Source of the DNA: Martelella sp. NC20 | GTDB lineage: Bacteria; Pseudomonadota; Alphaproteobacteria; Rhizobiales; Rhizobiaceae | NCBI RefSeq assembly: GCF_013459645.1 | Contig: NZ_CP054863.1 | Coordinates: 62,001 to 126,000, forward strand | Length of the DNA stretch: 64,000 bases | Direction of reading: 5' to 3' | In this document: piece after piece, positions 44,766-60,565 of the stretch | Numbering within the stretch: position 1 is the stretch's first letter | Layout: each line of letters starts with the position of its first letter | Notes under the pieces: model-generated | The model's database searches: none | What the model was told of the DNA's origin: nothing | Seen by the model: the letters and a program-made list of their open reading frames with translations, nothing else | Program-made: the position numbers and the translations under genes

Positions 44766-44905
44766 TCATCGAAAATCCCGCGTCTTCACGTTGATCTCAT
44801 CGATATGCCCATACGGGTCGAACATATCGCGCGGCTTCGGCATCCCGCGCGGATCAGGCGCCGGCGATCCATGATGAAACTCGTCGCCCCGGCCGCGCGG
44901 AAGCG
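44766..44905 (-). pseudogene. 3' remnant of an unidentified gene
   Basis: An open frame ends at TGA 44766-44768 with a coding-like tail GMPKPRDMFDPYGHIDEINV followed by KTRDFR. Upstream it runs into the IS256 remnant, so the 5' part was probably removed. I cannot name the family. Confidence 0.35.
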
Positions 44906-45488
44906 GAAAGGCCGTATCCCGGCTGCCGACGCTTGGAAACGGAGGATTTGGAAATCCCCGTCATGCCCATGGCCTGCACCAGCTCATCGACCTTGCGCGT
45001 CGAAACGCCGTTGATCCAGGCCTCCTGGATGACGGCCACCAGTGCCTTCTCCACCATCTTCCTTGGCTCCAGGAAGCCGGGAAAGTAGGCTCCCTGCCGC
45101 ATCTTCGGTATCTTCAGGTTGAGCGTGCCGAGCCGGGTGTCGAGGGAGCGGTCGCGGTAGCCGTTGCGCCAGGTCTGGCGGCCATCGCCACGTTCATAGC
45201 GCCCAGCGCCGATCAGGCCATCCACGTCGGCCTCCATGATCAGTTGCAGCACGCTTTCGGCAATGGCCCGCAGGAAATCGCTGTCGCCGCTCTTCGCGGC
45301 AAGCTCGGAAAGAGCTAATCTGTCGTCGGTCATCGGGGTTCCTTTCGGCTGGTTGAAGTCTTGCAACTCCACCTTCTCCGACAGGCCCGGTGCCCACCTT
45401 GCGCTCAACGAATACGGCAGCTCATTCTCCACCGCCGATTCCGCCTCAATGCGCCTCCGAAATTACACCACGTGCGCGGACGCTACCC
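44906..45488 (-). mobile_element. truncated IS256-family element
   Basis: The right end carries GTGCGCGGACGCTACCC (45472-45488), the terminal repeat form of IS256-family elements, and a transposase 5' part follows on the minus strand. The other end is missing: transposase homology stops near 44950. The inner boundary is approximate. The element lies directly against the end of phnL. Confidence 0.7.
44950..45333 (-). pseudogene. IS256-type transposase, N-terminal fragment
   Basis: The fragment starts at ATG 45333 with AGGAA upstream and covers about 128 residues: MTDDRLALSELAAKSGDSDF, LMEADVDGLIGAGRYERGDG-like start region, WRNGYRDRSLDTRLGTLNLK, PRKMVEKALVAVIQEAWING and VSTRKVDELVQAMGMTGISK. 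After SSVSKR the sequence leaves the family, so the catalytic DDE part is lost. The frame stays open to 44854. Confidence 0.85.
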
Positions 45489-46134
45489 TTTTGTTAGATC
45501 CAGTGAGATCGCTGTCCTTGCCGTTGGGATGCCGTCCTCGGTTTGGTGCACGCCGATGAGCGACGCGGTGCCCGCTCTCGCCAAGTCCGATAGGAAAGAC
45601 CAAATGATGGGGGTGCAGCGGTCGATCGAGCGAGGCGAAGGGCTCATCGAGTAGAAGTATTCGCGGTCGCCGCAAGGCGGCGAGCGCGATGTTGAGACGT
45701 TGCTTCTCTCCACCGGACCAGGTCACGGCAGGCAGGTCCCAGATATGTGGCGGCAGCGCCAACTGCTCAAAGAGCCCTTCTATTTCGGTGAGGCAAGTGC
45801 CGGGCGCGGCCATCTCTCGGGCAAGGTCGAGTCCGGACTTGCCCGGAATAGCTGTCAGAAACTGCGTGCAATAGCCAATGGTCGAACGCCTGATCGAGAT
45901 CAGTTCCACCACGGAAAGGGTGAGAAGATCGCGCCGCCACCCGCCGGTATCCAGGATCGCCGTGCCCGCGCTCGCCACGCGAGTACCGTAGATAAGGTCC
46001 AGCAGCGTCGATTTTCCCGAGCCCGAGCCGCCGACGACCAGTCCCACCTCGCCCGCCGTCAGCGTGAAGGTCGCCGGGCCGATTGTCCGGTCGCCATAAC
46101 GTTTCGCAAGGCCTTCGACACACAGGATCGTCAT
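45483..46134 (-). pseudogene. phnL: phnL, frameshifted and truncated at the 3' end
   Basis: PhnL-type ABC ATPase of the C-P lyase system: VVGGSGSGKSTLLDL (Walker A), VTWSGGEKQRLNIA (signature) and RILLLDEPFASLD (Walker B). Just after LDR, near 45620, one extra C shifts the frame; the original reading continues as CTPIIWSFLSDLARAGTASL then IGVHQTEDGIPTA and ends SLDLTKG at 45483. The annotated-frame product would instead end in unrelated residues at 45463. The last codons run into the IS256 end, so the native C-terminus is also missing about 10 residues. A sequencing error could explain the shift but not the IS truncation. Confidence 0.8.
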
Positions 46135-46142
46135 TCGAACAC

Positions 46143-46910
46143 TCAAATCATCGACGCGACGAGATCGCGACTTGCTGGATGGCAGGGATCGGCAACCAAT
46201 CGGTCCGGCGGCGCTTCCTCGACGATCCGCCCCTCGTGCAGAACGATGACGCGGTGCGCGAGGAGTCGGGCTATGCGCAAGTCGTGGGTCACGAGCAGCA
46301 TCGCCACGCCCGTCCGGCGCTGGAGTTCGGACAAGAGCCTCAGGAGCCGCGCCTGGGCGGACGTGTCGAGGCCCGTCGTCGGTTCGTCCAGGAGCAGGAT
46401 GTCCGGCTCGTGCACGAGCGCGCGAGCGATTTGCAGCCGCTGCTGCTTGCCGCCGGAAAAGGCGCCTGGCAGGTCCCGCATCCGCGCTTCATCAAGGTCC
46501 AGTGCCCCAAACCAGTGCCGTGCAGCCTCCAAGGCCCGGCCGAAGTGGCGTTCGCCATTGTCGAAGAGCGTCTGGGCGATGTTGGCGGCAGCGCTCGCGG
46601 CCAGGTCGAGCGTCTCGCGGGCATCCTGTGCGACGAAGCCGAACCGCCGGCGGCGGAGCGGGACGAGGGCCTGCTCCGGCAGATCGTAGAGAGACAGCGG
46701 CGTCCCGTCATCGACGGAGAGCAGGACCTGACCCTTCGTCGGAGGCAGGCATCCGGCCGCCGTGCGCAGCATTGTCGACTTTCCCGCGCCGGATTTTCCA
46801 ACGAGACAAAGAACCTCGCCTGGATAGAGCGAAAGCGAAGCACCTCGCACGATGCGCCCGCCGAAGGAGATATGGTCAAGCGTCAGGAGGGGCTGCGGTA
46901 GGTCAGGCAC
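46143..46910 (-). CDS. phnK: C-P lyase ABC-type ATPase PhnK
   Basis: A 255-residue ABC ATPase, close to E. coli PhnK (252). LVGKSGAGKSTML is Walker A, FSGGKQQRLQIARAL the signature and ILLLDEPTTGLD Walker B. PhnK binds the PhnGHIJ core and helps turnover rather than transport. The GTG at 46910 is chosen: it has GAGGA 8 bases upstream and lies in the junction GTGCCTGA with the phnJ stop, the same junction used at phnG. An ATG at 46937 would add 9 residues. Confidence 0.9.
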   Translation of the reverse strand: MPDLPQPLLTLDHISFGGRIVRGASLSLYPGEVLCLVGKSGAGKSTMLRTAAGCLPPTKGQVLLSVDDGTPLSLYDLPEQALVPLRRRRFGFVAQDARETLDLAASAAANIAQTLFDNGERHFGRALEAARHWFGALDLDEARMRDLPGAFSGGKQQRLQIARALVHEPDILLLDEPTTGLDTSAQARLLRLLSELQRRTGVAMLLVTHDLRIARLLAHRVIVLHEGRIVEEAPPDRLVADPCHPASRDLVASMI

Positions 46911-47748
46911 TGGCGGCTTCCTCCGCACGCTCGGCACAGCATTCCGTGTCGGAGCAGACCCATTCGCTCGTTCCGTCGTCCTTGAGGAGAAGGTGGTCGA
47001 GATGGCTCGTGGCGCACCCGCATATCACGCATTGCCGTCCGTCCGAGGGATGACTGGTGTTAAAGGGAACGTCCTCGAAGGCGATGCTTTCCACGCGCGT
47101 ATAGGGTGGCAGCGCATAGAGTCGGCGTTCGCGTGCCGCGCCGAAGATCTGGATGGCCGGTGAATTGTCGAGGCGGACATTGTCGCGCTTGGGGATAGGA
47201 GAAGGTGACATCAGATAGCGACCTTCCACCATGACGGGATAGTCATAGCCGGGCTGGGCGACGCTTCCGCTTCCCGCCCTCTCCTCGAAGAGCCGCGTAT
47301 AGACCCGACCGTAGTCAGATGCCGCGTGCATGCGGGCCGCCTCGCCGGCTGAATTGACGAAGGCGCGCAGCGGGTCCGGCCGCGGCACCTGGTAGACGAC
47401 GACCTGTCCCTCTGCGAGCATCGCCTCGGGCACGCGCTGGCGGACCTGGATCAGCGTTGCCTCACGGGTCCGGGTCGTGGTGGCAACGAAGGCGGTGCGC
47501 GTGAAGAAGGCGCGGATATTGACGGCATTCACGGTCTCGTCGGAGCCGTGGTCGGTCACTTTCAGACGGTCGTCTGCACCGATGAGGCTTGCGGTCACGA
47601 CCATGCCGCCAACACCCCAACCATAGGCGATCGGCATTTCCGGCGCGATGAAGGGCACCTGGTAACCGGGAACGGCTAGTGCCTTCAGAATGGTACGACG
47701 GACGGAGCGTTTGCTGTCTTCATCGAGATAGGCGAAGGTCTCAGTCAT
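46903..47748 (-). CDS. phnJ: carbon-phosphorus lyase PhnJ
   Basis: A 281-residue radical-SAM enzyme that cleaves the C-P bond. The four conserved cysteines C240-x2-C243-x21-C265-x5-C271 match the spacing of E. coli PhnJ (241, 244, 266, 272), and GYQVPFIAPEMPIAYGWGVGG at the N-terminal part is the family signature (split here as GYQVPFIAPEMPI and AYGWGVGG). The start at 47748 overlaps phnI by 8 bases. All catalytic residues I can check are present, so this gene looks functional. Confidence 0.95.
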   Translation of the reverse strand: MTETFAYLDEDSKRSVRRTILKALAVPGYQVPFIAPEMPIAYGWGVGGMVVTASLIGADDRLKVTDHGSDETVNAVNIRAFFTRTAFVATTTRTREATLIQVRQRVPEAMLAEGQVVVYQVPRPDPLRAFVNSAGEAARMHAASDYGRVYTRLFEERAGSGSVAQPGYDYPVMVEGRYLMSPSPIPKRDNVRLDNSPAIQIFGAARERRLYALPPYTRVESIAFEDVPFNTSHPSDGRQCVICGCATSHLDHLLLKDDGTSEWVCSDTECCAERAEEAASA

Positions 47749-48754
47749 CGTCGGCAAGCCTCCGGATCGTTTCGAGATCGGCCTGGAAATCGGAGTAGTG
47801 CGGCAGCTTGAGATGCGAGACGTAGCCGCTCGCCTCGACCCCGTCGCCATGCGTCAGCACCAGGTCCGGGTCGAGCCCAGATTTCATCGCCTGATCGACT
47901 GTCGCCATCGCCACGGCCTTGCGCTCGTTGGCGCCGAAGGCAACGCCGAAGCCCGGGGACAGATGCGATTGCCGCCCGTCGAGTACCGGGGCCACCATGC
48001 GGCAGGCCGTCACCTCGATATCGCCGACAGAGACGGTGAGGCCGAGCTCCTCCAACTCGACGAAAACCTCGACTTCCCCTGCGGAAAGCTCCTCGACATA
48101 GGGATGGGACGCGCCGGCGGTGCGAAGGCGCGTATAGGCAATGCCCGTCAAGAAGCCTTCCTCGCCCCGCACCAGATGGCCGAGCGTTTCGGATGCACCG
48201 TAGGGAGGACGCAGCGGCACCCGCGTGATGTCGACCGGCGCCTCCTCCCGCTCCTGACTCTCCCCGGGAAGGCGATCGCGGCAGCGGGATGAGGAAGGCG
48301 CGCATGGAGTGCTCGCAACCTCCTCGGGAAGAGGAAAAAAAGCCGCCTCCTCCATGAGCGAGAAATCGAGCAGCCGGTGGGTATAGTCGTAGGTCGCCCC
48401 CAGAATCTGGCCGCCCGGCAGTTCCTTCACCGCGGCTGAGATATGCCGGTCGTGACGGATGGCCGAAAAGTCGATAGGCGCGCTATGGCCCATACGCCGC
48501 AAGGTCGCACGATGGGCGCGCAGCAGGAACGTCGCCTCTGCCACGTCGCCCTGTGCCTGTTTAAGCGCAAGGGCTGCGAGGTCCCGATCGTAAAGCGCAC
48601 CTTCGGTCATAACCCTGTCCACTGCACCGCGCATCTGCTCACCTATCTGGGCAACCGTGAGCTCCGGCACGGAGGGATCACCCCGACGCCTGCGCGCCAG
48701 CGCATCAAGACTTGCAGCGATAGCGGCCTCGCCGCCCTTAACGGGAACGTACAT
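47741..48754 (-). CDS. phnI: C-P lyase nucleosidase subunit PhnI
   Basis: A 337-residue subunit of the PhnGHIJ core. MYVPVKGGEAAIAASLDALA at the start and RRRRGDPSVPELTVAQIGEQ, GYVSHLKLPHYSDFQADLE at the end are conserved. PhnI exchanges the adenine of ATP for the phosphonate with PhnG, H and L. It overlaps phnH by 17 bases and phnJ by 8. Confidence 0.95.
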   Translation of the reverse strand: MYVPVKGGEAAIAASLDALARRRRGDPSVPELTVAQIGEQMRGAVDRVMTEGALYDRDLAALALKQAQGDVAEATFLLRAHRATLRRMGHSAPIDFSAIRHDRHISAAVKELPGGQILGATYDYTHRLLDFSLMEEAAFFPLPEEVASTPCAPSSSRCRDRLPGESQEREEAPVDITRVPLRPPYGASETLGHLVRGEEGFLTGIAYTRLRTAGASHPYVEELSAGEVEVFVELEELGLTVSVGDIEVTACRMVAPVLDGRQSHLSPGFGVAFGANERKAVAMATVDQAMKSGLDPDLVLTHGDGVEASGYVSHLKLPHYSDFQADLETIRRLADDD

Positions 48755-49313
48755 CGGATATCTCCAGCCTCACGCTACGGGGAAGGCAGGCGCACCAATC
48801 TCCCGCCGTCAGGATGAGGTCGACGCCGAGCGGATAGGCAGCGTTGTTGCACGTCCATTGCGCGAGAAACGTCGCCGGCAGGCCAAGGGGGGCGAGGGTC
48901 CGACCCCCGGGTCCGATTCCCGGCCCCGAAAGGTTGAGCGCCGCACCGCCCGAAAGGCCCGTGACCTCCGCAATGACCGTGGCGGAAAGATGCGGGTCGG
49001 CCGGGCTTCCCTTCGGAAAGATATCGATCCGATCCAGCATCTCGCCACGACAGAGGGCAAAGGTGCAGGACTTTCTATCCACCATCGGCCACCGCGCCGC
49101 GATTGCGCGATCCCGAATATCCACGAAGCTTTCGTCGATCCAGAGCGGTGTCGTAGTGTCGGCCAATGTTGACAGAACGACCGCGTGCGCCGCCTTGCCT
49201 TCAGCAAGGACCACGACTTTGCCGGGGTAGGAGAAGGCTTCCAGAAGCCGGCGGAATACGCGCTGGTCCTCGTGGATACGATCCGTGCCTCGCCGGTCGA
49301 TCTCGATTTTCAC
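48738..49313 (-). CDS. phnH: C-P lyase subunit PhnH
   Basis: A 191-residue subunit (E. coli 194). HEDQRVFRRLLEAFSYPGKV at the N-terminus and GPGIGPGGRTLAPLGLPATF in the C-terminal half are family motifs. PhnH is a PLP-transferase-like fold without cofactor in the GHIJ core. The GTG at 49313 overlaps the phnG stop as GTGA. Confidence 0.9.
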   Translation of the reverse strand: MKIEIDRRGTDRIHEDQRVFRRLLEAFSYPGKVVVLAEGKAAHAVVLSTLADTTTPLWIDESFVDIRDRAIAARWPMVDRKSCTFALCRGEMLDRIDIFPKGSPADPHLSATVIAEVTGLSGGAALNLSGPGIGPGGRTLAPLGLPATFLAQWTCNNAAYPLGVDLILTAGDWCACLPRSVRLEISDVRSR

Positions 49314-49771
49314 GGTGCACTTCCTTGTCTCGCCGCGGTGAAGAAATGCGCCGCCGTCTTCTGCGCCTCCTCGGCCTTGCGGCATCGCCGCGCCATGATG
49401 GCGTCTTCGGCCGGCTGCAGCAGCTCCAATGCGAGCAGGGCGTGCGACTGCGGATCCTGCAGCAGCGCGTCGAAGAAGGCGGCGAGTTCAGCCCGCTCCG
49501 GATCGCGGCCGAGCACCACGGCATAACCGCGCCGACCGTCGATCTCCACGATGCAGCGCGTCATGGTCGCCTCGCCGAGATGGAAGGGCGTTCCCGTCAC
49601 GGGCGCTTTCGCACACAACTGAAGAAGGCCGACCTCCGGTCCGACAAACCGGCGCGCCGCATGGCGCTGCCGGCTGCCGTCGAAGGCCGATCTCAAGAGG
49701 TCGATAGGGGCGCGGGCAAGCACCCCCATCCATTCACGACGCCCGCCCTCGGTGGAACAGTGCTCAGGCAC
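49310..49771 (-). CDS. phnG: C-P lyase subunit PhnG
   Basis: A 153-residue subunit (E. coli 150). REWMGVLARAPIDLL near the N-terminus matches the conserved WMSVLA region; GTPFHLGEATMTRCIVEIDG and GYAVVLGRDPERAELAAFFD follow. GTG 49771 is preferred over ATGs at 49789 and 49795 because it has AAGG 7 bases upstream, gives the normal length, and forms GTGCCTGA with the stop of the preceding gene. Confidence 0.9.
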   Translation of the reverse strand: MPEHCSTEGGRREWMGVLARAPIDLLRSAFDGSRQRHAARRFVGPEVGLLQLCAKAPVTGTPFHLGEATMTRCIVEIDGRRGYAVVLGRDPERAELAAFFDALLQDPQSHALLALELLQPAEDAIMARRCRKAEEAQKTAAHFFTAARQGSAP

Positions 49772-50279
49772 GGCTGACCTTGGCGTCATAGACATCCTCG
49801 GGAGAGAGTGGCACCAGACGATCACCCATTTCGCGCTTCAACGCGGCAAGCTGTATCTCGTCTTCGGCTGTCCTGTCCTCCTTGCGAGCCAGCGTGATAA
49901 ACTCGGGGCGGACATGGCCGGGACGGATCGTCACCTCAACGACGGTACCCCGATAGGTGAAGCGGAAGTAGTATTTGCCCTTGGGGCTTTCCTCGATGCC
50001 ATCCCAACCGAGCGACCGGTCAACCGTGTAGCGGTCGTCCGTCAGGGCGCGCGTGACGAATTCGATGGCGTCGCGGCCGCCGGGGCCGGGAAACGCCGTA
50101 TCGATGCGCACCTCGCGGCGCTCGATCGGCCGGCCCTCGTCGAGCAGCGGAAAGGCGCGTTGCATCACTTTCAGGCCATGCGCCACGCCGCCCGGAAAGG
50201 TGGTGCCGTGATAGTTCAGTAGTTCGGCAAAGCTGACGGTGAAGGTTTCGCCGTTTTCGAGATAGGTGATCGTGTCCAA
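49764..50279 (-). CDS. FmdE-like protein between importer and C-P lyase genes
   Basis: A 171-residue soluble protein. LLNYHGTTFPGGVAHGLKVM (about residues 18-37) resembles the FHGHxCPG-x-A-x-G start of the FmdE family (formylmethanofuran dehydrogenase subunit E domain), and RDAIEFVTRALTDDRYTV plus GKYYFRFTYRGTVVEVTI fit the rest of that fold. The family's metal-binding Cys is Phe here. The TTG at 50279 is chosen because AGGAG stands 6 bases upstream. It lies 20 bases after the importer ATPase and is coupled to phnG. Function is unknown; a ligand- or metal-handling role for the imported substrate is inferred. Confidence 0.55.
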   Translation of the reverse strand: MDTITYLENGETFTVSFAELLNYHGTTFPGGVAHGLKVMQRAFPLLDEGRPIERREVRIDTAFPGPGGRDAIEFVTRALTDDRYTVDRSLGWDGIEESPKGKYYFRFTYRGTVVEVTIRPGHVRPEFITLARKEDRTAEDEIQLAALKREMGDRLVPLSPEDVYDAKVSRA

Positions 50280-50299
50280 GATTGGCTCCTGTCTTGCGG

Positions 50300-51052
50300 T
50301 TATGATGGAAGGGGCGCCGCCCCGAAGATCGGGGAAACGACATCTGGCCGGCCGGGGTCGGGAGTATGGCGGGCAAACGGCACGCCGTAGAGACGGGCGA
50401 GTTCTCCGTCCGTCATCATCGCGGAGGCTTGGCCATAGCGGACCTCGTCTCCGGCATGCATCATCAGCGCCCGGTCCGCAAGGAACAGGCCGTGCTGCGG
50501 ATGGTGGGTCGTAAAGATGATCGTATGGCCGCGCGCCTGCCGCAGGCGCATGAGGACTCCGAGCAGAAGGTCCTGATTGGCGAGGTCGAGCGAGGCGGCC
50601 GGCTCGTCGAGCACCAGTACTTTCGTTTCCGTCGCCAGCGCCCGGGCAAGCAGCACAACCTGCCGCTCGCCGCCGGAAAGCTGGCCGAAGGGCCGCCCGG
50701 CGAAACACTCGGCGCCCACGGCCGCGAGCGCGGAGAGCGCCGCCGCCTCGTCCTGCTTGCCCGGCAGGCCGAAAAGCCCGAGCCGCCCGGCCCGTCCCAT
50801 CGTCACGATATCGAGGCAGCGATGCTGCTCGCCGCCACTTTGCAACTGCGGCACATAGCCGACGAGCGCCGGCATGGTGCGCTCACCCTCGGTCAATGTC
50901 AGCGAACCGAGCAAGGTGCGCAGCAGCGTCGTCTTGCCCCGTCCGTTACGGCCGAGGATCGCCAGCACCTCACCCTCCGCCAGCTTGAAGCTGACATGGC
51001 GGAAGATCCAGCGCTCACCCCTTCGAAGGCCGGCATCCTTGAGTGTGATCAT
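50300..51052 (-). CDS. FecE/BtuD-type ABC importer ATPase
   Basis: A 250-residue ATPase: ILGRNGRGKTTLLRTL (Walker A), LSGGERQVVLLARAL (signature), KVLVLDEPAASLD (Walker B), TTHHPQHG (H loop). It starts at ATG 51052, overlapping the permease stop as ATGA. With the permease and binding protein it forms a type II importer for metal chelates or similar bulky ligands. Confidence 0.9.
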   Translation of the reverse strand: MITLKDAGLRRGERWIFRHVSFKLAEGEVLAILGRNGRGKTTLLRTLLGSLTLTEGERTMPALVGYVPQLQSGGEQHRCLDIVTMGRAGRLGLFGLPGKQDEAAALSALAAVGAECFAGRPFGQLSGGERQVVLLARALATETKVLVLDEPAASLDLANQDLLLGVLMRLRQARGHTIIFTTHHPQHGLFLADRALMMHAGDEVRYGQASAMMTDGELARLYGVPFARHTPDPGRPDVVSPIFGAAPLPS

Positions 51053-52101
51053 CGGGCAGGGCCTCCCTGCGTCTGGCGCGTGCACAGGAGATAGATGAAG
51101 ACGGGTGCGCCTATGACCGCCGTCAGGATACCGAGCGGCAGTTCCGCGCTCGTCACGGTGCGGGCGAGCGTATCGACCGTCACCATGAAGCTGGCGCCGA
51201 GCAGCGCCGCCGTACCGTGGAAGCGGCGATGGCTTTCGCCGACGAGCAGGCGCGCGGCATGGGGAATGACGAGGCCGACCCAGCCGATGACGCCGGAAAC
51301 CACAACGCAACCGCCGATGATCACCGAGATGACCGCAAAGACAAGCCAGCGCGAGAAGCCGACATTGACGCCGAAGGACCGCGCCTCCTCTTCCCCCATC
51401 GAGAGCACCGCGATGCGGAAACGCAGGCGATAGAGAAGCGCGATGGCGACGAGGATGACCGGACCATGCTCACCGACTTTTTGCCAGCTTGACGAGGAAA
51501 AGCTGCCCATCAGCCAGAAGACGATGGCGGGAAGCGAGGTCTCCGGATCGGCGACATATTGCGTGAGCGAGATCATGGCGGAAAACAATGCGTCTATGAC
51601 GATGCCGGCCAGGACGATGGAAAGGATCGAACGCCCTGCCATATGCGAAATCACCGCCACCAGGACCAGCGCCGTAAGCGCCGAGGCGAAGGTGGCCGCA
51701 AACAGCATCGCGGCACTGCCTCCGACGAGCAGGGTCAGCGTGCCGCCCAGTGCCGCGCCGGAGGAAAGACCCAGGACACGGGGCGAGACGAGCGGATTGC
51801 GAAAGAGCGCCTGCAGGGCCGCCCCGCAGAGCGCAAGTCCCGCTCCGACGATCGCTGCGAGCAGGATCCGCGGCAGGCGCACATTGATGAGTATGCGCTC
51901 TTCCATCGTTTCCGGTGCGGCCATGCTGGAAAGCCAGCGGCCGAGAATCTGCCATACGTCGGCAAGCGGTATGTGGAACCGCCCGGTGGCGGCGGAGACG
52001 AAAGCCGCCACCGCAAGGACAAGCACGAGCGACAGCCAGTGAAGGGCACCGCCAGCCGCCTGCCCGTTCGAAAGCCGGGCCTCGGTCAGGGCGGACGTCA
52101 T
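51049..52101 (-). CDS. FecCD/BtuC-type ABC importer permease
   Basis: A 350-residue, roughly ten-helix permease. VRLPRILLAAIVGAGLALCG and ALQALFRNPLVSPRVLGLSS plus GAALGG are the FecCD signatures, and GVIGWVGLVIPHAARLLVGES is the ATPase-contacting loop. It overlaps the binding protein gene by ATGA. No PhnE-type permease is present in this operon. Confidence 0.9.
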   Translation of the reverse strand: MTSALTEARLSNGQAAGGALHWLSLVLVLAVAAFVSAATGRFHIPLADVWQILGRWLSSMAAPETMEERILINVRLPRILLAAIVGAGLALCGAALQALFRNPLVSPRVLGLSSGAALGGTLTLLVGGSAAMLFAATFASALTALVLVAVISHMAGRSILSIVLAGIVIDALFSAMISLTQYVADPETSLPAIVFWLMGSFSSSSWQKVGEHGPVILVAIALLYRLRFRIAVLSMGEEEARSFGVNVGFSRWLVFAVISVIIGGCVVVSGVIGWVGLVIPHAARLLVGESHRRFHGTAALLGASFMVTVDTLARTVTSAELPLGILTAVIGAPVFIYLLCTRQTQGGPAR

Positions 52102-53195
52102 TTGCGGGCAAACTGCTCGTAGTTGGCGGCACCCTTGTTGAGTTCGAGCTTCAGCACGGCATCAATCTCTTCATCGGTGGGCGTATAGTTATAGAGCCGC
52201 TCGAAGCCGCTCTTCACCTCGGTGCGCAGGTCGAAATGGAAGAGGTCCGGATGGGCGAGATTGGCGAGCCACATCCAGGTGAAGGGGCTTTCATGGCTGG
52301 CGCTGTCCCAGACATAACCGCCGTTCGGCGTCTTGTAGACGCGACCAGCCTTTGCCGCGGCTGTCTGCGACAGGATAGAATCCTCCAGGATCGTTTCGCG
52401 GCCGGCGTCGGCTTCGTGCGCCGTCAGCATGATAAGGTCGGGGTTCCAGGCCGCGATCTGCTCTGCATTGACCTCGGCCCGGACGCCAAGACCTGCGGCG
52501 ACATTTTCGCCGCCCACCAATGTGATGTAGAAGTTCTGGTAGCTCTTCTCACCGGTCGCCGTGAACTTGCTCTTGGAGGAGCGCAGGTGCAGGATTCTCG
52601 GTCTTGTGGCGTCCTGATGCGCGGCAAGCGTCGCCTTGATCTCGTCGATCACCGCGTCACGCCATTTGAACAACGCCTCCGCCTTGTCTTGCTTGCCAAG
52701 GATATTGGCGACGAGGCGGATATTCTCCCGCGCCAGTTCCTCCGTGCCACCATTGCCGCCACCGACCATCAGCGCGACGGGAATACCGGCATTGCGCAGG
52801 GGGGCCACCAGTTCGTCGCCACGTCCGCCCCACTGGATGACGAGGTCCGGCTTCAGCGCAGCGATCGCCTCGACATTCGGCATCCACCCGTTGCCGCCCT
52901 CCGCGACAATGCCGCTCTCGATGGACGCGGCATCCGGGAACATCTTTTTGAGAAGACCTGTTTCGAAGGCCTTGCGCGAAACAGGATTCATGCCGACCAG
53001 GTGCTCCGAGGAGCCGTCCACCGCAATGACAGTCGCGGCACCGGGCTGCGGCAGCGTTACGATCCGCTTCGCTGGTCCGGGCAGCGTAATCTCCGCGCCC
53101 GTAACATCCTTGAAGGTGACGGAATCAGCAAGGAGCGGCGCCGGCGAAAGGGCGAGAAGGAAAAAGGCGGCAGACAGGCGCAGTTTTAAAGTCAT
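52098..53195 (-). CDS. FecB/BtuF-type substrate-binding protein
   Basis: A 365-residue periplasmic protein with a signal peptide (hydrophobic core AAFFLLALSPAPLLA, cleavage after ADS region) and a class III binding fold: VTFKDVTGAEITLPGPAKRI, ALKPDLVIQWGG, AAWNPDLIMLTAHEAD, and RVYKTPNGGYVWDSASHESP. This group binds siderophores, cobalamin, haem or molybdate/tungstate. ATG 53195 is preferred over 53207 because GGGG lies upstream. First gene of the importer-FmdE-phn operon. Confidence 0.85.
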   Translation of the reverse strand: MTLKLRLSAAFFLLALSPAPLLADSVTFKDVTGAEITLPGPAKRIVTLPQPGAATVIAVDGSSEHLVGMNPVSRKAFETGLLKKMFPDAASIESGIVAEGGNGWMPNVEAIAALKPDLVIQWGGRGDELVAPLRNAGIPVALMVGGGNGGTEELARENIRLVANILGKQDKAEALFKWRDAVIDEIKATLAAHQDATRPRILHLRSSKSKFTATGEKSYQNFYITLVGGENVAAGLGVRAEVNAEQIAAWNPDLIMLTAHEADAGRETILEDSILSQTAAAKAGRVYKTPNGGYVWDSASHESPFTWMWLANLAHPDLFHFDLRTEVKSGFERLYNYTPTDEEIDAVLKLELNKGAANYEQFARK

Positions 53196-53211: not shown

Positions 53212-53230
53212 CATGATAATAATACTCATG
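53212..53230. promoter_or_regulatory. operator-like dyad upstream of the importer-phn operon
   Basis: CATGATAATAATACTCATG, an imperfect palindrome (CATGA ... TCATG) 17 bases upstream of the binding-protein start. It matches 17 of 19 bases with the reverse complement of 54763-54781, in the promoter region of the divergent genes next door. Confidence 0.6.
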
Positions 53231-53388
53231 TTTTTCTGTACAAAGGGGAAGGCGTCGTATCAAGTCGAACAAATCGGACAATGTGGAAAGGAATTTCGAA
53301 CAGCGGCGCCATCGGGAAAGCTGCTGCCAGACAACTGTCGATCGCATTAATGCCGACGACAGGTGACCGCCATTGACGGGAAATCGTG

Positions 53389-54698
53389 TCAAGCATTCGC
53401 ACAGGCCCTCAGATTGGGTGCAAAGCGGTCGAGGAAGCGGGTCGTTGCCGGCATGAAGCGTGAACCGTGATGGTACATCGGGTCGAGCGAGGAGATGACC
53501 ATCGTGCCGGCCGTCGAAATCGTGTCCATGTAGAGGATGGCGCGCCCCTCGCCGTCGCGAGCCAGAACCGGTGCGCCTTCCGGTGGCGTGAACCAGCCGT
53601 GCAGATGCCAGGTCACGTCCTGCTTGCCGATGTGGCGCATCAATGGGTGTGTCTTAGCCTGATCGGTCAGTTCGACCCCGAGATCAGCCCCAGGGGTGAG
53701 CCACCACCACCAATTTGTCGGCGTTCTGGTGAAATGGACCGCAGGAAGCCATAATTCCGACTGGCTTTCTACCAACGCGATCACCGTGCCGCCGGCATCA
53801 AGATGGCGCGCGATGACAGCCCTCTGCTTGATCATGCGCTGGGCCGGGGTTCGGCATGGCACCCAGAGGATATCCTGGGGGCGCAGTACGTTAACGAGGC
53901 CCTCGGGTGCGCAGATGACATCGAAAATACCGGTATAGGCCGACCCTTCCAGACTATGGATATGATAGTAGGTTCCGGAACTCGACGCGACGATGCGTGG
54001 GCCCACCCTGCCTGTATCGCGCGCGCCGCCATAGCTCTCGGCCCTGGTCAGCGGCAAGTCTTCGAGCGGCAGTGTCAGCGCGAAGCAATTCGAGGAGAGG
54101 CAGGAACCGCCGTTTGCCCAGTTGATAATGCGCCGCCTCAGGTCCGGGGCGAGATTCCATTCAAGCCCGATCGTGCCGAGGTCATTGCCGGCATGTGAGA
54201 AGAACCGGCCACCCCGCGGCCTTGCCCACACCCAATCGACCGGGACTTGCGTGGGACCCAGCCCATTGACGGCCACCGCGCCCTCCGGTGGCGGATTGCA
54301 GCCGCGTCCGTAGAAACCCGCGACGCCCCTGTTGGTCTCGATCTTCTTCAGGTCGATACCGTCATAGAGCGAATGAGGATTGATCGACGACAGATCGAAA
54401 TTTTGTCGTTTTGGTGCGACGATCGAACGATACTGACCGATGCCATCAACCAGCGGACGCGCCATATGGCCATTGAAGAACCAGCGCCCACCGTGATCGA
54501 GAAAAGACGCGAGCGCATCCTTGAGCGCCGCATGGCATTCTGGTCGAGCTGATTACCGGTGATCAGCCCCTTGTGCGACATGAGAATCTCGGCCGTGAGA
54601 TCGGCTTGCTCTGTGATGGCGACTTCTCCACGGAGCACGGCAGCCCGAACCGTCTCGGATGGCTCTTCGAAAGTGGATTTCAAGAAAATCGTGGTCAT
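53389..54698 (-). pseudogene. uncharacterised gene split by a frameshift
   Basis: The first part starts at ATG 54698 (MTTIFLKSTFEEPSETVRAA) and reads to SHKGLITGNQLDQNA; near 54535 the coding frame changes and continues as AALKDALASFLDHGGRWFFN then GHMARPLVDGIGQYR through to 53389. The joined product is about 435 residues. It contains FDVICAPEGLVNVLRPQDIL, HLHGWFTPPEGAPVLAR and a GTMVISSLDPMYHHGSRFMP end. The layout resembles glutamine-amidotransferase/ThuA-like domains, but I am not certain. It shares the 19-bp dyad with the phn operon and is divergent from the LysR gene. Confidence 0.6.
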
Positions 54699-54762: not shown

Positions 54763-54781
54763 CATGACTAGTATTATCATG
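54763..54781. promoter_or_regulatory. second copy of the operator-like dyad
   Basis: CATGACTAGTATTATCATG lies between the frameshifted gene (start 54698) and the LysR gene (start 54823). Its reverse complement matches 53212-53230 at 17 of 19 positions, suggesting one regulator, probably the adjacent LysR protein, acts at both promoters. Confidence 0.6.
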
Positions 54782-54822: not shown

Positions 54823-55800
54823 ATGAATAGAACAGATCGAACGATCATATCGAACAAGCTATCGGCGGTCTCGATACGGGATTTTCTCCTTGTTACGACC
54901 GTCTGGAAGCGCTCCAGCTTTAGGGTCGTTGCGCGGGAGTTAGGGATAAGCCCGTCGGGCCTCTCCCATCAGGTTCGCAAGGTCGAGGAAGCTCTTGGCA
55001 CGACCTTATTCGAACGGTCCAGCCAGCAGGTGAAGGCGACCCTGGAAGGTGAGGTTCTCTTGTCTCACATTCAGGATGTCCTCGGGGTGGTTGGTAAACT
55101 TGACCTCCTCGCCGTGAAGACGAGCCGGCCCTTCGGAGGGCACCTTAAACTTGGCGCGATCTCAACGATCGGTGCCTACGTTTTGCCTCACGTCGTAAAT
55201 CTGTTCGAGGCAAACTTTCCTGATGTCAGAATTGATCTCCTGGAAGGCAAGACCGAAGGGGTCACCCAACGTCTGCGCGGAAGTGAAATTGACATGATGT
55301 TATCTTGCCGTTTCGCTGACAATGCGGATCTGGAAACAAAACCTCTGTTCACCGAGCGCTTTGATTTGATCGCCAACGTAGCTCATCCGCTTGCGGCAAA
55401 GACATCAATAAACGTTCAGGATCTTGATGCATCTGAGTTTATGACGATGGCAGACGGCGAGGGTTATAGCGAAGATACGCTACCTGCAGCGATACGCACG
55501 ACACAGCACGACTACAATGCTTGTCGCACCGAAATCAGAGGGTTGAGTCTCGAAACAATCGGTGCGCTCGTTTCAATGAAAGGGGGGGCTAGTATGGTTC
55601 CTTCGTTAGCCTCTCCCCGGCTAAGTACCTTTCCTAATGTAAAAATTGTGAGCATCTCCGGCCGCGCGCCACAACGAACCATATACGCTTCTTGGCGCAG
55701 ATCGTCGCCTCATCAGGAGGCATTTCATCAGTTGTGCCATATTTTGAGCGAGATGCAGGCGGTATGCGATCTTCCGATCGCAGGCGCGAGTTCCTTATAG
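54823..55800 (+). CDS. LysR-family regulator next to the phn operon
   Basis: A 325-residue LysR protein: ISIRDFLLVTTVWKRSSFRV-like start (IRDFLLVTTVWKRSSFRVVA), then LGISPSGLSHQVRKVEEALG, LFERSSQQVKAT, and an effector domain with GGHLKLGAISTIGAYVLPHV. It belongs to the OxyR/CysB-like branch with a hydrogen-peroxide-inducible-gene-activator-type domain. It is divergent from the frameshifted gene, with a copy of the 19-bp dyad between them. It probably responds to the importer's substrate. Confidence 0.85.
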   Translation: MNRTDRTIISNKLSAVSIRDFLLVTTVWKRSSFRVVARELGISPSGLSHQVRKVEEALGTTLFERSSQQVKATLEGEVLLSHIQDVLGVVGKLDLLAVKTSRPFGGHLKLGAISTIGAYVLPHVVNLFEANFPDVRIDLLEGKTEGVTQRLRGSEIDMMLSCRFADNADLETKPLFTERFDLIANVAHPLAAKTSINVQDLDASEFMTMADGEGYSEDTLPAAIRTTQHDYNACRTEIRGLSLETIGALVSMKGGASMVPSLASPRLSTFPNVKIVSISGRAPQRTIYASWRRSSPHQEAFHQLCHILSEMQAVCDLPIAGASSL

Positions 55801-56240: not shown

Positions 56241-56669
56241 ATGTTCCGCATCTTCGCCCTTTCGTTTCTCGCGCTAACCACCACGATGGCTCCGGTGTGG
56301 GCCGAGGATCATGTCGTGAACATGCTCAACCGAGGTGACGATGGCATCATGGTGTTCGAGCCCGGTCTGCTCGTCATTGAGCCCGGTGATACAGTGCGCT
56401 TTGTTGCCGCCGAACGGGGACACAATGCCGAAACCATTGACGGCATGATCCCGGAAGGCGCTCTGGGCTTTGAGGGTCGGCTGAACGAGGAAGTCGTGTT
56501 TTCGCCCGATATCGAGGGCGTTTACGCCATCAAGTGCAAACCGCATTACGCCATGGGCATGGTCATGATCATCGCGGTCGGTGAAGCTCAGGCGCCTGAG
56601 GAATTCGTCGCCCGTCGTGTCCCGCCACGCGCACGCAAGCGGTTCGAGGCTTATCTCGACACGCTTTGA
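56241..56669 (+). CDS. pseudoazurin (blue copper protein)
   Basis: A 142-residue exported type 1 copper protein. The signal peptide ends PVWA, and mature ligands are His61 (RGHNAE), Cys99, His102 and Met107 (KCKPHYAMGM). Pseudoazurin carries electrons to copper nitrite reductase or nitrous oxide reductase in the periplasm. No nirK or nos gene is in the window. It heads the nitric-oxide-related cluster and has an NsrR-like site upstream. Confidence 0.95.
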   Translation: MFRIFALSFLALTTTMAPVWAEDHVVNMLNRGDDGIMVFEPGLLVIEPGDTVRFVAAERGHNAETIDGMIPEGALGFEGRLNEEVVFSPDIEGVYAIKCKPHYAMGMVMIIAVGEAQAPEEFVARRVPPRARKRFEAYLDTL

Positions 56670-56754
56670 ACGCCACGACGTGCAAAAGGAAATCTTCGAT
56701 GGCGCATCCCGACAAGCAGATCGACTGTCCTGAAGCAGTCGAAAGGAATCCGTC

Positions 56755-57771
56755 ATGAACGGCCTGACAAACTTCCCACTTCGCCGCCGCACGTTCCTTA
56801 CAGGAATGGCCGGCATGGCAAGCCTGCCCGCAATCGGCTTTGGCGCGGGCCATGCAGCGGCCGCGGCGCCGCTTGCGCAAATATCGCTATCCGGGCCGCC
56901 TGCCGGACCGTCGGTCACGCTCGCGCAGGCCGCGGTCACGGGCGCGTTTTCGAAGATCGCTGACAAGGCCGCATTCAACGTCTGGCGCAATCCCGACGAA
57001 GTCCGTGCCGGGATCACTTCCGGCCAGATGTCGCTGGTGGTGATGCCAGTCCAGGCCGCCGCCAACATGTATAATCGCGGCTTCGGCGTTCGGCTTGTCA
57101 ACACGCTGACCGACGGACTGCTCTATATCATTGCCACCGACCCGTCTCTGCAAACGATAGAGGCCTTGCGCGGCAGGAAGCTTGCGGTTCCCTTCCGCAA
57201 CGACACGCCCGATCTGATCCTCAAGCGACTTCTCAAGGCTCATGATATCGATCCAGAACAGGATTTGTCGCTAGACACCACTGGCACGCCCGTCGAAGCC
57301 ATGCAGCTCCTGCTGAGCGGCAGGATCGATGCCGCGCTTGTGCCGGAACCGGCCGCCTCGGCCGCCATCATCAAAGGAAAGGCCTCCGGTGTGACAGTCA
57401 CCCGCGTGATCGACGTACAGAAAGCCTGGGGCGAGACGATGCATGTGCCGCCGGTTTTGCCGCAGGCAGGCCTTGCGGTGACAGAGCCATTCTTCGAAGA
57501 CAATGGAAGCCTCATTCCGGAACTTCATCAGTCACTGGTTGCGGCAACGGCCGCCGTCAACGCAGAGCCGGCGGAAGCCGCCAACAACGCTGCCTCTGCG
57601 CTTGGCATGCCCTGGCCCGTTCTGAAAGAAGCGATCGGCTATTCCAACCTGACGGCAACACAGGCAACCACGGCGCGACCGGCAATCGAATCCCTGTTGT
57701 CGATCCTTGCCGACAGCGATCCCGGCATTATCGGCGGAAAGCTTCCTGATGACGGATTTTACGCACTTTAG
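56755..57771 (+). CDS. Tat-exported NMT1/SsuA-type ABC substrate-binding protein
   Basis: A 338-residue binding protein with a twin-arginine signal (RRRTFLTGMAG, then a hydrophobic run ending AAAA). The NMT1/OpuAC-type fold shows FNVWRNPDEVRAGI, GLLYIIATDPSLQTIEALRG, KLAVPFRNDTPDLILKRLLK and MQLLLSGRIDAALVPEPAAS. Tat export suggests folding with a cofactor or metal before export. It overlaps the permease gene. Its substrate is unknown; the neighbours suggest something used in denitrification or nitric-oxide defence. Confidence 0.8.
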   Translation: MNGLTNFPLRRRTFLTGMAGMASLPAIGFGAGHAAAAAPLAQISLSGPPAGPSVTLAQAAVTGAFSKIADKAAFNVWRNPDEVRAGITSGQMSLVVMPVQAAANMYNRGFGVRLVNTLTDGLLYIIATDPSLQTIEALRGRKLAVPFRNDTPDLILKRLLKAHDIDPEQDLSLDTTGTPVEAMQLLLSGRIDAALVPEPAASAAIIKGKASGVTVTRVIDVQKAWGETMHVPPVLPQAGLAVTEPFFEDNGSLIPELHQSLVAATAAVNAEPAEAANNAASALGMPWPVLKEAIGYSNLTATQATTARPAIESLLSILADSDPGIIGGKLPDDGFYAL

Positions 57772-58591
57772 CGCAAGCGTCTTGCGCCCCGTGCTGGATC
57801 GTCTCGGCCGGACCGGGCAGTTTCTCTGGTCCGGCTTTGCGGGGCTGGCAGCATTCTCGCTGCTTGCCGCCGTCTGGCAATACGGGCACGAGCAATGGGG
57901 GGCGTTCATACTGCCCTCCCCGCTCGCAACGCTTGCCGCCACATGGTCGATCCTGTCCGATCCGGCCGCATGGTCGCTGATCGCGCAGACTGTCGGACGT
58001 GCGCTCCAGGGCTTCCTCCTCTCCGCTTTGTCCGGTGCGTTGCTCGGCATGGTCGCCGGCCATTCCCCGGCGACCATCCGGTTGGCGCGGCCGCTGATCA
58101 CGATCCTGATCGGCGTGCCGCCGATCGCCTGGATTGTTCTGGCCCTGATCTGGTTCGGCGCGGGCGACGGAACCGTCATCGCAACTGTGGTGGTGACAGC
58201 CGTCCCCATCATCTTCGCGGGAACGGCCGAAGGTATTCTAAGCCGCGACCGGAAGCTCGATGACATGGCGCGCGTCTTCGGCGCAAATGCCTGGCGCAGG
58301 ATGACAAGCCTGCGCCTGCGACAACTCACCGCCCATCTGTTTCCCGCCCTGACGCTTGCCCTCGGCATGTCTTTCAAGGTCGCGGTCATGGCCGAACTGC
58401 TAGCCAATGTCGGCGGGATTGGCGGAGAACTGTCGGCAGCCCGCAGCTATCTCGATATCACGCAGGCGCTCGCTTGGGTCATGATCGCGGTGATCGCGCT
58501 GCTGATTTTCGAATATGGCGTCATCCATCCAATCCGGTCCGAGTTCGAGCGCTGGCGACACGCCGAAATCCCGTGGGGGGTCAAACGATGA
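57749..58591 (+). CDS. SsuC/TauC-type ABC permease
   Basis: A 280-residue permease with about six helices; EAA-loop VFGANAWRRMTSLRLRQLTA and GVPPIAWIVLALIWFGAGDG are typical of NitT/TauT permeases. It starts at ATG 57749 within the end of the binding-protein gene and overlaps the ATPase gene by ATGA. Confidence 0.85.
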   Translation: MTDFTHFSASVLRPVLDRLGRTGQFLWSGFAGLAAFSLLAAVWQYGHEQWGAFILPSPLATLAATWSILSDPAAWSLIAQTVGRALQGFLLSALSGALLGMVAGHSPATIRLARPLITILIGVPPIAWIVLALIWFGAGDGTVIATVVVTAVPIIFAGTAEGILSRDRKLDDMARVFGANAWRRMTSLRLRQLTAHLFPALTLALGMSFKVAVMAELLANVGGIGGELSAARSYLDITQALAWVMIAVIALLIFEYGVIHPIRSEFERWRHAEIPWGVKR

Positions 58592-59340
58592 AGACCGGCC
58601 TCACCCTGAAAGGGCTCCGTCATGCCTATCTCGGCCGCACGGTGCTGGACCATATCGACCTTGAGGTGCCAGCGTCCGAGATCGTCGCCCTGGTTGGTCC
58701 CTCCGGCAGTGGAAAGAGCACGCTGGTTCACCTTGCTGCTGATCTGCTGTCGCCAATTGGCGGTCGAGTTGAGCGCAATTACAAACGCCATGCGATGATC
58801 TTTCAGGAACCGCGCTTGCTGCCCTGGGCCACGGCGGCCGAAAACATCGCCTACCCCTTGAGGATCTCCGGCCCCTCGCGGACGGAAATCAGGGCGAGGT
58901 TGAAGACTGTTGCAGCCAAGGTTGCACTCCAACCGGACGATCTTGATAAATATCCGGGCGAGCTTTCCGGCGGAATGCGCCAGCGCTGCGCAATCGCACG
59001 AGCGCTGATCGTCGCGCCGGACTTCATCTATTTCGATGAGCCTTTCACCGCCCTGGATGTTGCGCTGAAGCGGCGGATGCAGGATCTCGTGATCGCCGCG
59101 ACGCAATCGTCCAGTTTCGGCGGTATCTTCGTGACCCACGACCTGATGGAAGCCGCCCGGATCGCCCATCGAGTGGCCGTGCTGGATGTCGGCGGCGCCG
59201 GGATTGTCGGCGAACGTCTGGTTCCCGGAACGCCTGGCATGCGCGACGATACCGAGCTTTTCGCGCTTTCGCAACGCTGGATGCGGGAAGACCCCGCCTT
59301 TCGTCATATTCACGACGTCGACGAAAGGATGAGCGGATGA
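58588..59340 (+). CDS. SsuB/TauB-type ABC ATPase
   Basis: A 250-residue ATPase: LVGPSGSGKSTLVHL (Walker A), LSGGMRQRCAIARAL (signature), FIYFDEPFTALD (Walker B), VTHDLMEA (H loop). The ATG at 58588 overlaps the permease stop, and its own stop overlaps the nnrS1 start (ATGA), so the importer and NnrS genes are one operon. Confidence 0.9.
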   Translation: MKTGLTLKGLRHAYLGRTVLDHIDLEVPASEIVALVGPSGSGKSTLVHLAADLLSPIGGRVERNYKRHAMIFQEPRLLPWATAAENIAYPLRISGPSRTEIRARLKTVAAKVALQPDDLDKYPGELSGGMRQRCAIARALIVAPDFIYFDEPFTALDVALKRRMQDLVIAATQSSSFGGIFVTHDLMEAARIAHRVAVLDVGGAGIVGERLVPGTPGMRDDTELFALSQRWMREDPAFRHIHDVDERMSG

Positions 59341-60557
59341 GCCTTGTCGACACGTCCGTTCTGCGCGGCCGGCTCAGCCTCCTGCACGTTCTTGGCGATG
59401 AAGGTTTCCGGCTGTTCTTCCCCTTGAGCGCTCTCTACGCGGCTGTCTGGCCGTTCCTGTGGGTCGTGATCCATGGCTATGGCCTCCCTGTAGCTGGGGC
59501 AATACCACCGAGCATCTGGCACGTGCACGAGATGATCATCGGAGCGTTCGGCGCAGCACTTCTCGGCTTCATAACAACGGCCATCCCCGAATGGACGGAC
59601 ACGCCGCGCCTTCGCGGCAAGGCGCTCTATGCACTTGCGGCAATCTGGGGCGTTGCACGCATTTGCGGGCTGGTTGGCACCGAGGGCTTCATGTGGATAG
59701 GCGCCTTCGCGGATATTGTCTGGACCGGCTTTCTTGCCGCCTATGTGCTTCGCGTCAGCCTGGACAAAAACAACAGCAAACTGACTGGTTTTATCCTTTG
59801 GCTTGCAGGCCTGTGGCTTTGCGAAACGGCAACGCGTTATGCCTTCGCCACCGGGAATGTGGAACATGCGCAGCTTTTCACCCATCTTTCGGGTTTCATC
59901 TTCCTCGGGCTGCTCGGTCTTGCGCTGGCACGCATCACCGTGCCCGTCACCAACGATATTCTGGATCCTTCCGGAGAGACATCCCCGTTCAGACCGCACC
60001 CCGGACGTCTCAATCTCGCCCCCGGTGTGATGACCATCCTGATCGCGGCGGAACTTTCCGGATTGTCCCCCGAGGTCACGGGATTTGTCTTCATCGCCGC
60101 CGGCGCGGCCTTTCTCGACCGCGTGGCCGAAGCTTTCGTCGGACGCGCGTTTTTCCGGGCTGAAATCGCCGTACTGGCCGGATCAAGCGCGCTGGCAGGA
60201 ATCGGCCTCATCGCGATCGGCTGCGCCCGGCTCGGACTGCCGGTGATGGAGACCACCGGCCTGCACATAGCCCTGATGGGAGGGCTCGGGCTCGGCGTCA
60301 TCGCGGTGTTCTGCATTGCCGGATTGAGGCACACGGGTCAGCCGCTCGCATTTTCCGTGAAGACGGGGATAGCAATCGCACTGATCGTCATCGCGATTGC
60401 AATCCGGTCTCTTCCTGAATTCGGGATCGCATCCGAGCTCGTCGGTCACCACCACGCAGTGGCGGCAATTTTCTGGGCCGGCGGCTTTCTGCTCTGGCTC
60501 AGGGTCTACTGGCCGGCTTTCTCCGATCCCGCAACACTGAACCAACACGATTGCTGA
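59337..60557 (+). CDS. nnrS: NnrS-family haem-copper membrane protein, copy 1
   Basis: A 406-residue protein with about 12 membrane helices. FFPLSALYAAVWPFLWVVIH and SIWHVHEMIIGAFGAALLGF match the NnrS signature (WHxHEM-x-G-x-x-x-A-x-x-x-GF); His residues in WHVHEM and HHHAVAAIFWAGGFLLWL may bind haem. NnrS proteins protect against nitric-oxide stress. It is coupled to the ABC ATPase upstream and to a second nnrS downstream. Confidence 0.9.
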   Translation: MSLVDTSVLRGRLSLLHVLGDEGFRLFFPLSALYAAVWPFLWVVIHGYGLPVAGAIPPSIWHVHEMIIGAFGAALLGFITTAIPEWTDTPRLRGKALYALAAIWGVARICGLVGTEGFMWIGAFADIVWTGFLAAYVLRVSLDKNNSKLTGFILWLAGLWLCETATRYAFATGNVEHAQLFTHLSGFIFLGLLGLALARITVPVTNDILDPSGETSPFRPHPGRLNLAPGVMTILIAAELSGLSPEVTGFVFIAAGAAFLDRVAEAFVGRAFFRAEIAVLAGSSALAGIGLIAIGCARLGLPVMETTGLHIALMGGLGLGVIAVFCIAGLRHTGQPLAFSVKTGIAIALIVIAIAIRSLPEFGIASELVGHHHAVAAIFWAGGFLLWLRVYWPAFSDPATLNQHDC

Positions 60558-60565
60558 GAAAAACA

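Follow-up and report, generated by a model that had tools for sequence, protein, structure and literature searches.

A mobile C-P lyase operon with a siderophore-type importer and candidate iron-responsive operators in Martelella sp. NC20

The carbon-phosphorus (C-P) lyase is usually regarded as a phosphorus-starvation enzyme fed by the importer PhnCDE, and the biochemical roles of PhnG to PhnM are established for Escherichia coli. Phosphonate importers such as AepXVW, PhnSTUV and similar systems are, to our knowledge, not of the FecCD class. In the current work, a 64,000-nucleotide stretch of Martelella sp. NC20 (positions 62,001 to 126,000 of contig NZ_CP054863.1; hereafter the window) was analyzed, in which genes of a FecBCD/BtuFCD-type importer and of an FmdE-fold protein stand in front of phn genes, the whole being referred to as the cassette. 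With moderate confidence, this cassette may be read as a mobile, iron-controlled C-P lyase operon whose siderophore-type importer replaces PhnCDE, and which would import and destroy a metal-chelated or chelating phosphonate. The features on which this reading is built, being gene content, conservation, grouping in a single clade, catalytic residues, operator-like sites, and the presence of RirA and PhnM in the genome, were computed directly.

Organization and distribution of the cassette

On the minus strand, from 53195 to approximately 45483, ten genes are arranged head to tail in one tight operon, in the order FecB/BtuF-type periplasmic binding protein (52098..53195; PF01497, 5.3e-28), FecCD-type permease (51049..52101; PF01032, 2e-81), importer ATPase of the FecE/BtuD type (50300..51052; PF00005, 7.1e-24), FmdE-fold protein of 171 amino acids (49764..50279), PhnG (49310..49789), PhnH (48738..49313; PF05845, 5e-39, with TIGR03292 above its cut-off), PhnI (47741..48754; PF05861, 1.9e-113), PhnJ (46903..47748; PF06007, 2.1e-111), a PhnK-like ATPase (46143..46910) and a PhnL-like ATPase (45483..46134). 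The phnG gene was assigned by PF06754 (1.7e-36) and by TIGR03293 above its cut-off, both on 49310-49777, its start at 49789 being transferred from the copy in Martelella sp. NC18. A preliminary description of this DNA had proposed a tight operon of importer genes, an FmdE-like gene and phnG-H-I-J-K, which is borne out by the Pfam and TIGR matches and by the head-to-tail arrangement of the genes; it was incomplete in that it missed phnL, the absence of phnM (of which one copy is chromosomal), and that the cassette is mobile and has probably changed its regulation.

The phnL-like gene is frameshifted in the window, and the shifted frame, with TIGR02324 as its top NCBIfam match, scores 124 bits against a cut-off of 256. 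The phnL gene of the NC18 plasmid is intact (216 amino acids), and the frameshift may therefore have arisen recently or reflect a difference in sequencing. The operon matches this plasmid (NZ_CP054859.1; 263,333 bases) with 100.0% identity over 100% of 7951 bases, the contig carrying the window being 263,340 bases in length.

In a tblastn comparison of the window proteins with the collected loci, the order FecB-FecC-FecE-FmdE-PhnG-H-I-J-K-L was common to Martelella, Labrenzia, Agrobacterium, Nitratireductor, Rhizobium, Metarhizobium, Peteryoungia, Paenochrobactrum and a Klebsiella pneumoniae plasmid, the exceptions being loci cut by contig ends and locus L012, whose PhnH gave no match. By annotation, the same cassette is present on plasmids of Labrenzia (22.6 kilobases, kb), Rhizobium ZX09, A. 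vitis and Rhizobium WL3, as well as on enterobacterial plasmids of K. pneumoniae, P. mirabilis and E. coli M15; the search for FecBCD-type genes joined to phnGHIJK that had been suggested earlier returned one and the same cassette on alphaproteobacterial and enterobacterial plasmids. A query extending from the LysR gene upstream of the cassette to phnG matched 3 of 5426 E. coli genomes, every match being plasmid-borne. Matches to the FmdE-like protein were obtained on 38 plasmid records, of which 17 reach at least 70%; 16 of these 17 plasmids recur among the 60 PhnJ matches listed, the remaining one being NZ_CP066134.1. The protein is rare: at an E-value of up to 0.001 it was found in 12 of 297 genomes of the order, and at one of up to 1e-20 in 5 of 385 genomes of the class.

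In a midpoint-rooted tree of PhnI and PhnJ from 37 loci, the 15 cassette leaves form one clade with a support of 100 (L009, L011, L025, L026 and L071 were omitted as near-copies or cut loci), inside which the enterobacterial and Paenochrobactrum copies constitute a sister group. When the K. pneumoniae cassette is compared with that of the window, identity is highest for the FmdE-fold protein (70%), followed by FecC (59%), FecB and PhnI (58% each) and PhnJ (57%), while PhnG, PhnH and PhnL reach 31-36%. The cassette is a form of the C-P lyase operon that is mobile, carried on plasmids and found across many hosts. PhnJ matches of Falsirhodobacter and Paracoccus TOH were considered as further cassettes and rejected, their operons being canonical. 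Locus L062 (G009:C51) encodes a PhnJ of yet another, third type (380 bits, 41% identity), which clusters with Roseovarius copies in the tree; a PhnM match is found on the same contig at a distance of 1.6 kb. The K. pneumoniae plasmid also bears, close to the cassette, genes with a microcin B17 processing annotation (L031, 24491-28510).

Importer, FmdE-fold protein and C-P lyase

One operon encodes proteins matching PF01497, PF01032 and PF00005, which assigns the importer to the FecBCD/BtuFCD class, and no PhnCDE importer is annotated in the eight cassette clusters viewed, so the use of such an importer instead of PhnCDE, as first put forward in the preliminary description, is real and conserved. 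Zinc, heme and corrinoid ATPase models score highest for the importer ATPase and a distant BtuC match is also obtained, every one of them below cut-off; these matches would favor a plain iron or cobalamin importer whose co-transcription with the phn genes is an accident of gene order. This explanation is nevertheless improbable, because importer, FmdE-fold and phn genes occur together on one strand from Rhizobiales to K. pneumoniae, and because a conserved motif sets the binding protein apart from its phn-free relatives. By tblastn, this motif, LHLRS[SA]KxK, is present in all 19 cassette rows, while none of nine rows (eight genes) of other FecB-like proteins contains it; these show, for example, LYLQRA or LYLGRA. 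The stretch presumably sits at the ligand cleft, as in related proteins, and its cationic change would fit an anionic ligand.

The phn-free relatives are FecBCE-hyp436-FmdE operons of Martelella, Rhizobium, Agrobacterium and methanotroph plasmids. The two relatives on methanotroph plasmids sit amid TonB siderophore receptors, one of them also beside siderophore synthesis genes, and the relative on the chromosome of strain NC20 itself has genes for a CobW protein and an S11 peptidase nearby, which is compatible with metal supply; a zincophore or CobW reading of this chromosomal relative was considered and not adopted. A FecBCD set adjoining phn genes in Shinella HZN7 was rejected as the same system, given that its permease is 36% identical, that its phn set includes PhnCDE and that no FmdE-like match was found in the locus. 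On this Shinella plasmid (L030, 4163-17960), the FecBCD set, a pseudoazurin and a methyltransferase directly precede canonical phnF-GHIJKL and phnCDE, and the importer is only distantly related to that of the window.

The 171-amino-acid protein is assigned to the FmdE fold; it gives no match to Pfam FmdE (PF02663) at the gathering score, and a Methylosinus relative scores 22.2 against 22.9. It is 51-59% identical between the cassette and the phn-free FecBCE-hyp436-FmdE operons, and is also found beside an NrtA/SsuA-type importer on an E. coli plasmid and beside an importer annotated as NikA/Dpp-type in a Paracoccaceae strain, where two hypothetical genes resemble a split hyp436 by size alone. 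As the FmdE-fold protein is accompanied by various importers, it would appear, together with hyp436, to look like a cargo-handling module. Through a related chromosomal protein (P0184), hyp436 (53389..54698, minus strand) was assigned two GATase1/ThuA-like domains, where model matches to GATase1-like chains indicate a fold only. It is present as two broken frames in the window, is intact in Labrenzia (L022) and is absent from Rhizobium-type and enterobacterial cassettes, and is therefore not needed. On the E. coli ED1a plasmid (L074, 9001-12436), a distant FmdE-fold relative (33%) starts a set with an NrtA/SsuA-type importer; this record holds two FmdE-like matches, and the plasmid also carries colicin-like and pentapeptide-repeat genes.

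With regard to the lyase itself, alignment of the Martelella, A. vitis and K. pneumoniae copies revealed that Gly32 and the four C-terminal cysteines of PhnJ, which we take to be the residues needed for C-P cleavage, are kept, as are His328 and His333 (E. coli positions) of PhnI and the Walker B glutamates of PhnK and PhnL, the PhnL row being the NC18 sequence in place of the frameshifted window copy. The PhnI histidines and the PhnK and PhnL glutamates are named in a section of PMC9947105, according to which the N-terminal hairpin of PhnL binds PhnK in E. coli; the PhnL alignment has gaps at this hairpin. The PhnK-like protein has TIGR02323 as its top NCBIfam match, at 197 bits and thus below the cut-off of 302.85. 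PhnM was matched by tblastn in none of the 14 cassette loci that extend 1 kb or more past phnL, as compared with seven of nine canonical loci (L002, L006, L012 and L026, having less than 1 kb past phnL, were left out of this count, and L071 and L072 were judged by annotation only). Loss of phnM to a transposase was rejected as a general cause, since cassettes with other neighbours are also devoid of phnM; in the window, a truncated Mutator-family transposase (44854..45432, minus strand; PF00872, 6.7e-35, profile positions 8-139 of 379) lies directly downstream of phnL, outside the cassette, and marks its boundary.

The missing phnM, the scores of PhnK and of the frameshifted PhnL frame below their family cut-offs, and the gaps at the PhnK-binding hairpin could also be accommodated by a repurposed complex, in which PhnGHIJKL acts on an imported non-phosphonate chelator, for example by a ribosylation that releases the metal. 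Little probability is accorded to this possibility, as the residues taken to be required for C-P cleavage are retained, and as PhnM is encoded elsewhere, both in the genome of strain NC20 and, above cut-off, in all 11 carrier genomes searched. The NC20 genome encodes a single PhnJ, located in the cassette, and one PhnM above cut-off, located on the chromosome (L069, 15386-18508) together with DUF1045, an acetyltransferase and a phnN-like kinase (named by eye, AAA_18 being matched only weakly and below cut-off), with no phnGHIJK at that locus. This phnM group looks as if a canonical lyase had been lost, the plasmid cassette now supplying it. Ten of the 11 carriers also encode a canonical-scoring PhnJ (approximately 493-501 bits, the others scoring 332-380 bits), the remaining carrier being another Martelella. 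The cassette would thus seem to borrow PhnM from its host.

Operator-like sites and candidate regulation

Passages of PMC8822346 and PMC6386902 give TGA-(N9)-TCA as the operator of RirA, and 5 of 10 RirA peaks carried this motif according to the former. A TGA-N9-TCA site was found at most 150 base pairs (bp) upstream of FecB in 14 of 14 alphaproteobacterial cassettes examined, where chance is approximately 0.07 per 150 bp; the promoter count leaves out L003 and L004 (contigs starting past the FecB start) and L026 (enterobacterial, of the L031 type), L021 being the window's own operon. Six different operator sequences occur among these cassettes, with no variation at the six fixed bases or at two of the nine spacer positions. 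In the window, one candidate RirA operator (53214..53228) is positioned 19-33 bp ahead of the binding-protein start, and a second copy (54765..54779) precedes hyp436 within the intergenic region between this gene and a divergent LysR-family regulator gene (54823..55800, plus strand; PF03466/PF00126). RirA is encoded in the genome (NF008886, 272 bits against a cut-off of 193).

In contrast, the motif was present in 1 of 17 canonical phnG and phnC promoters (200 bp) of ten carrier genomes (L101 being represented by its phnC promoter only, and L096 and L102 by their phnG promoters only). The reverse was observed for a Pho-like score, defined as the match to a 14-position consensus: a score of at least 11/14 was reached by 8 of 10 canonical operons when the better of the phnG and phnC promoters was taken (7 of 9 for phnG alone) and by none of the 14 alphaproteobacterial cassettes, whose best match was at most 10/14. 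Another six canonical operons, two of which are very similar, were examined over 300 bp; TGA-N9-TCA was absent from all six and a Pho-like score of at least 12/14 was attained in five. Among the phn-free relatives, TGA-N9-TCA precedes FecB in two of five (Martelella chromosome and A. vitis), and in the Rhizobium SL42 relative it precedes the gene just before FecB. These operator-like sites suggest control by iron via RirA in Rhizobiales, and a RirA-type operator in the cassette promoters, in place of Pho-like sites, is what would be new here.

A number of observations weigh against this interpretation. The cassette promoters share descent, so that the 14 positive cases count as approximately six observations, and the motif is loose, with 31 occurrences in the window against 14 expected from shuffled sequences. 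The two window sites match the Fur consensus at 14/19 as well, which leaves RirA as a candidate regulator only. In Methylosinus, Methylocystis and SL42, the 150 bp preceding FecB contain no TGA-N9-TCA; the three enterobacterial cassettes do not carry it either, their top Fur match of 13/19 being weak and having a 7-12% probability of arising by chance. For the canonical operons, Pho-like sites were sought over longer stretches and in most cases in two promoters, which biases that comparison in their favor. No TonB receptor is annotated in the cassettes, and since PhnM above cut-off occurs in 177 of 297 genomes of the order (PhnJ in 161 of 297), its co-occurrence in the carriers is weak and merely permissive.

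Finally, the TGA-N9-TCA in front of FecB could belong to the neighbouring LysR, which leads to the main rival explanation: a plain phosphonate system under LysR control, with an ordinary C-P lyase acting on ordinary phosphonates, a chance-recruited importer, and a LysR protein that senses phosphonate and uses TGA-N9-TCA as its operator. A divergent LysR gene is indeed located upstream in all eight annotated cassettes viewed, alphaproteobacterial and enterobacterial, the LysR matches include the aminoethylphosphonate-linked model TIGR03339 (far below cut-off), and the catalytic residues are ordinary. Even so, we regard this explanation as less likely: TGA-N9-TCA also precedes phn-free FecBCE genes, just upstream of which no LysR was annotated or found (ten frames scanned for the chromosome), and the relatives of the importer are of the siderophore type. 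Furthermore, the operator is kept although the window LysR is only 36-39% identical to Rhizobium-type cassette LysR (and 32-33% to that of Paenochrobactrum and K. pneumoniae). By eye, the window sequence at approximately 53230-53300 is similar to the 5' end region of the LysR gene bordering FecB in other cassettes, as if hyp436 and a different LysR had replaced that gene. On the other side of LysR (56241-61759), the cassette is adjoined by a plastocyanin/azurin-type copper protein, together with an NMT1/phosphonate-binding-like substrate-binding protein and permease and two NnrS genes.

Proposed mechanism and comparison with known systems

In the mobile, iron-controlled operon favored here, scarcity of iron would cause RirA to release the operator; as RirA represses at ample iron, the operon would be expressed when iron is short. 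The binding protein would capture an anionic, metal-chelated or chelating phosphonate, FecCE would bring it into the cell, and the FmdE-fold protein would handle the chelate or its metal. PhnGHI, with PhnL, would then ribosylate the phosphonate, the chromosomal PhnM of the host would trim the triphosphate, and PhnJ with PhnK and PhnL would cut the C-P bond, by which the cell would gain metal and phosphate and the chelator would be destroyed. From the sequence we infer the iron response, the substrate, the activity, the role of the FmdE-fold protein and the use of host PhnM. Expression at low iron would be odd for an iron-sulfur enzyme, unless its purpose is metal supply.

The bulky or metal-bound phosphonate anticipated in the preliminary description has gained support as to its direction, in that the siderophore-cluster kin of the importer, the iron-type operator and the cationic motif make a metal-bound phosphonate the best guess for the ligand. 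Man-made aminopolyphosphonates are possible ligands, but the identity of 57% between alphaproteobacterial and enterobacterial PhnJ suggests that the ligand may be a natural compound. A more far-reaching version, in which the plasmid-borne, iron-controlled C-P lyase imports a metallophore of other organisms bearing C-P bonds and frees metal and phosphorus from it by C-P cleavage, is offered as a tentative possibility. If true, such a siderophore-destroying C-P lyase would imply a class of phosphonate metallophores. More generally, a conserved, mobile C-P lyase with a siderophore-type importer and an iron-type operator would connect phosphonate breakdown with metal supply and would indicate phosphonate chelators as yet unknown, and methane or other products could leave phosphonates under wider conditions. 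Because the cassette constitutes the only C-P lyase of the Martelella genome, its role would be accessible by plain gene removal.

Among the open-access matches listed (title and start of abstract; subscription papers lying outside this search), none dealt with a FecBCD-phn operon, with iron control of phn, with phosphonate, FecCD and C-P lyase together, or with phosphonate metallophores. The systems AepXVW, PhnSTUV and others described in PMC10574752 are likewise phosphonate importers other than PhnCDE, some of them not phosphate-sensitive; the words siderophore and FecB are absent from this review. The opine zincophore clusters, according to a section of PMC7438024, contain the same PF01032/PF01497 pair, predicted for a metal chelate, yet their FecCD importers are tied to chelator synthesis, whereas that of the cassette is tied to a degrading enzyme. 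The FecBCE-hyp436-FmdE operons share with the cassette the importer type, the FmdE-fold protein and, in some cases, the operator, but no phn genes were seen alongside them and their binding protein is without the cationic motif. When compared with the canonical phnCDEFGHIJKLMNOP of E. coli K-12 and Rhizobiales, the cassette has the same PhnG-H-I-J-K-L order and the same catalytic residues, whereas no PhnCDE, PhnF, PhnM or PhnN was seen in it, a siderophore-type importer and an FmdE-fold gene stand in front, an iron-type operator is found instead of Pho-like sites, and PhnI and PhnJ belong to a separate clade.

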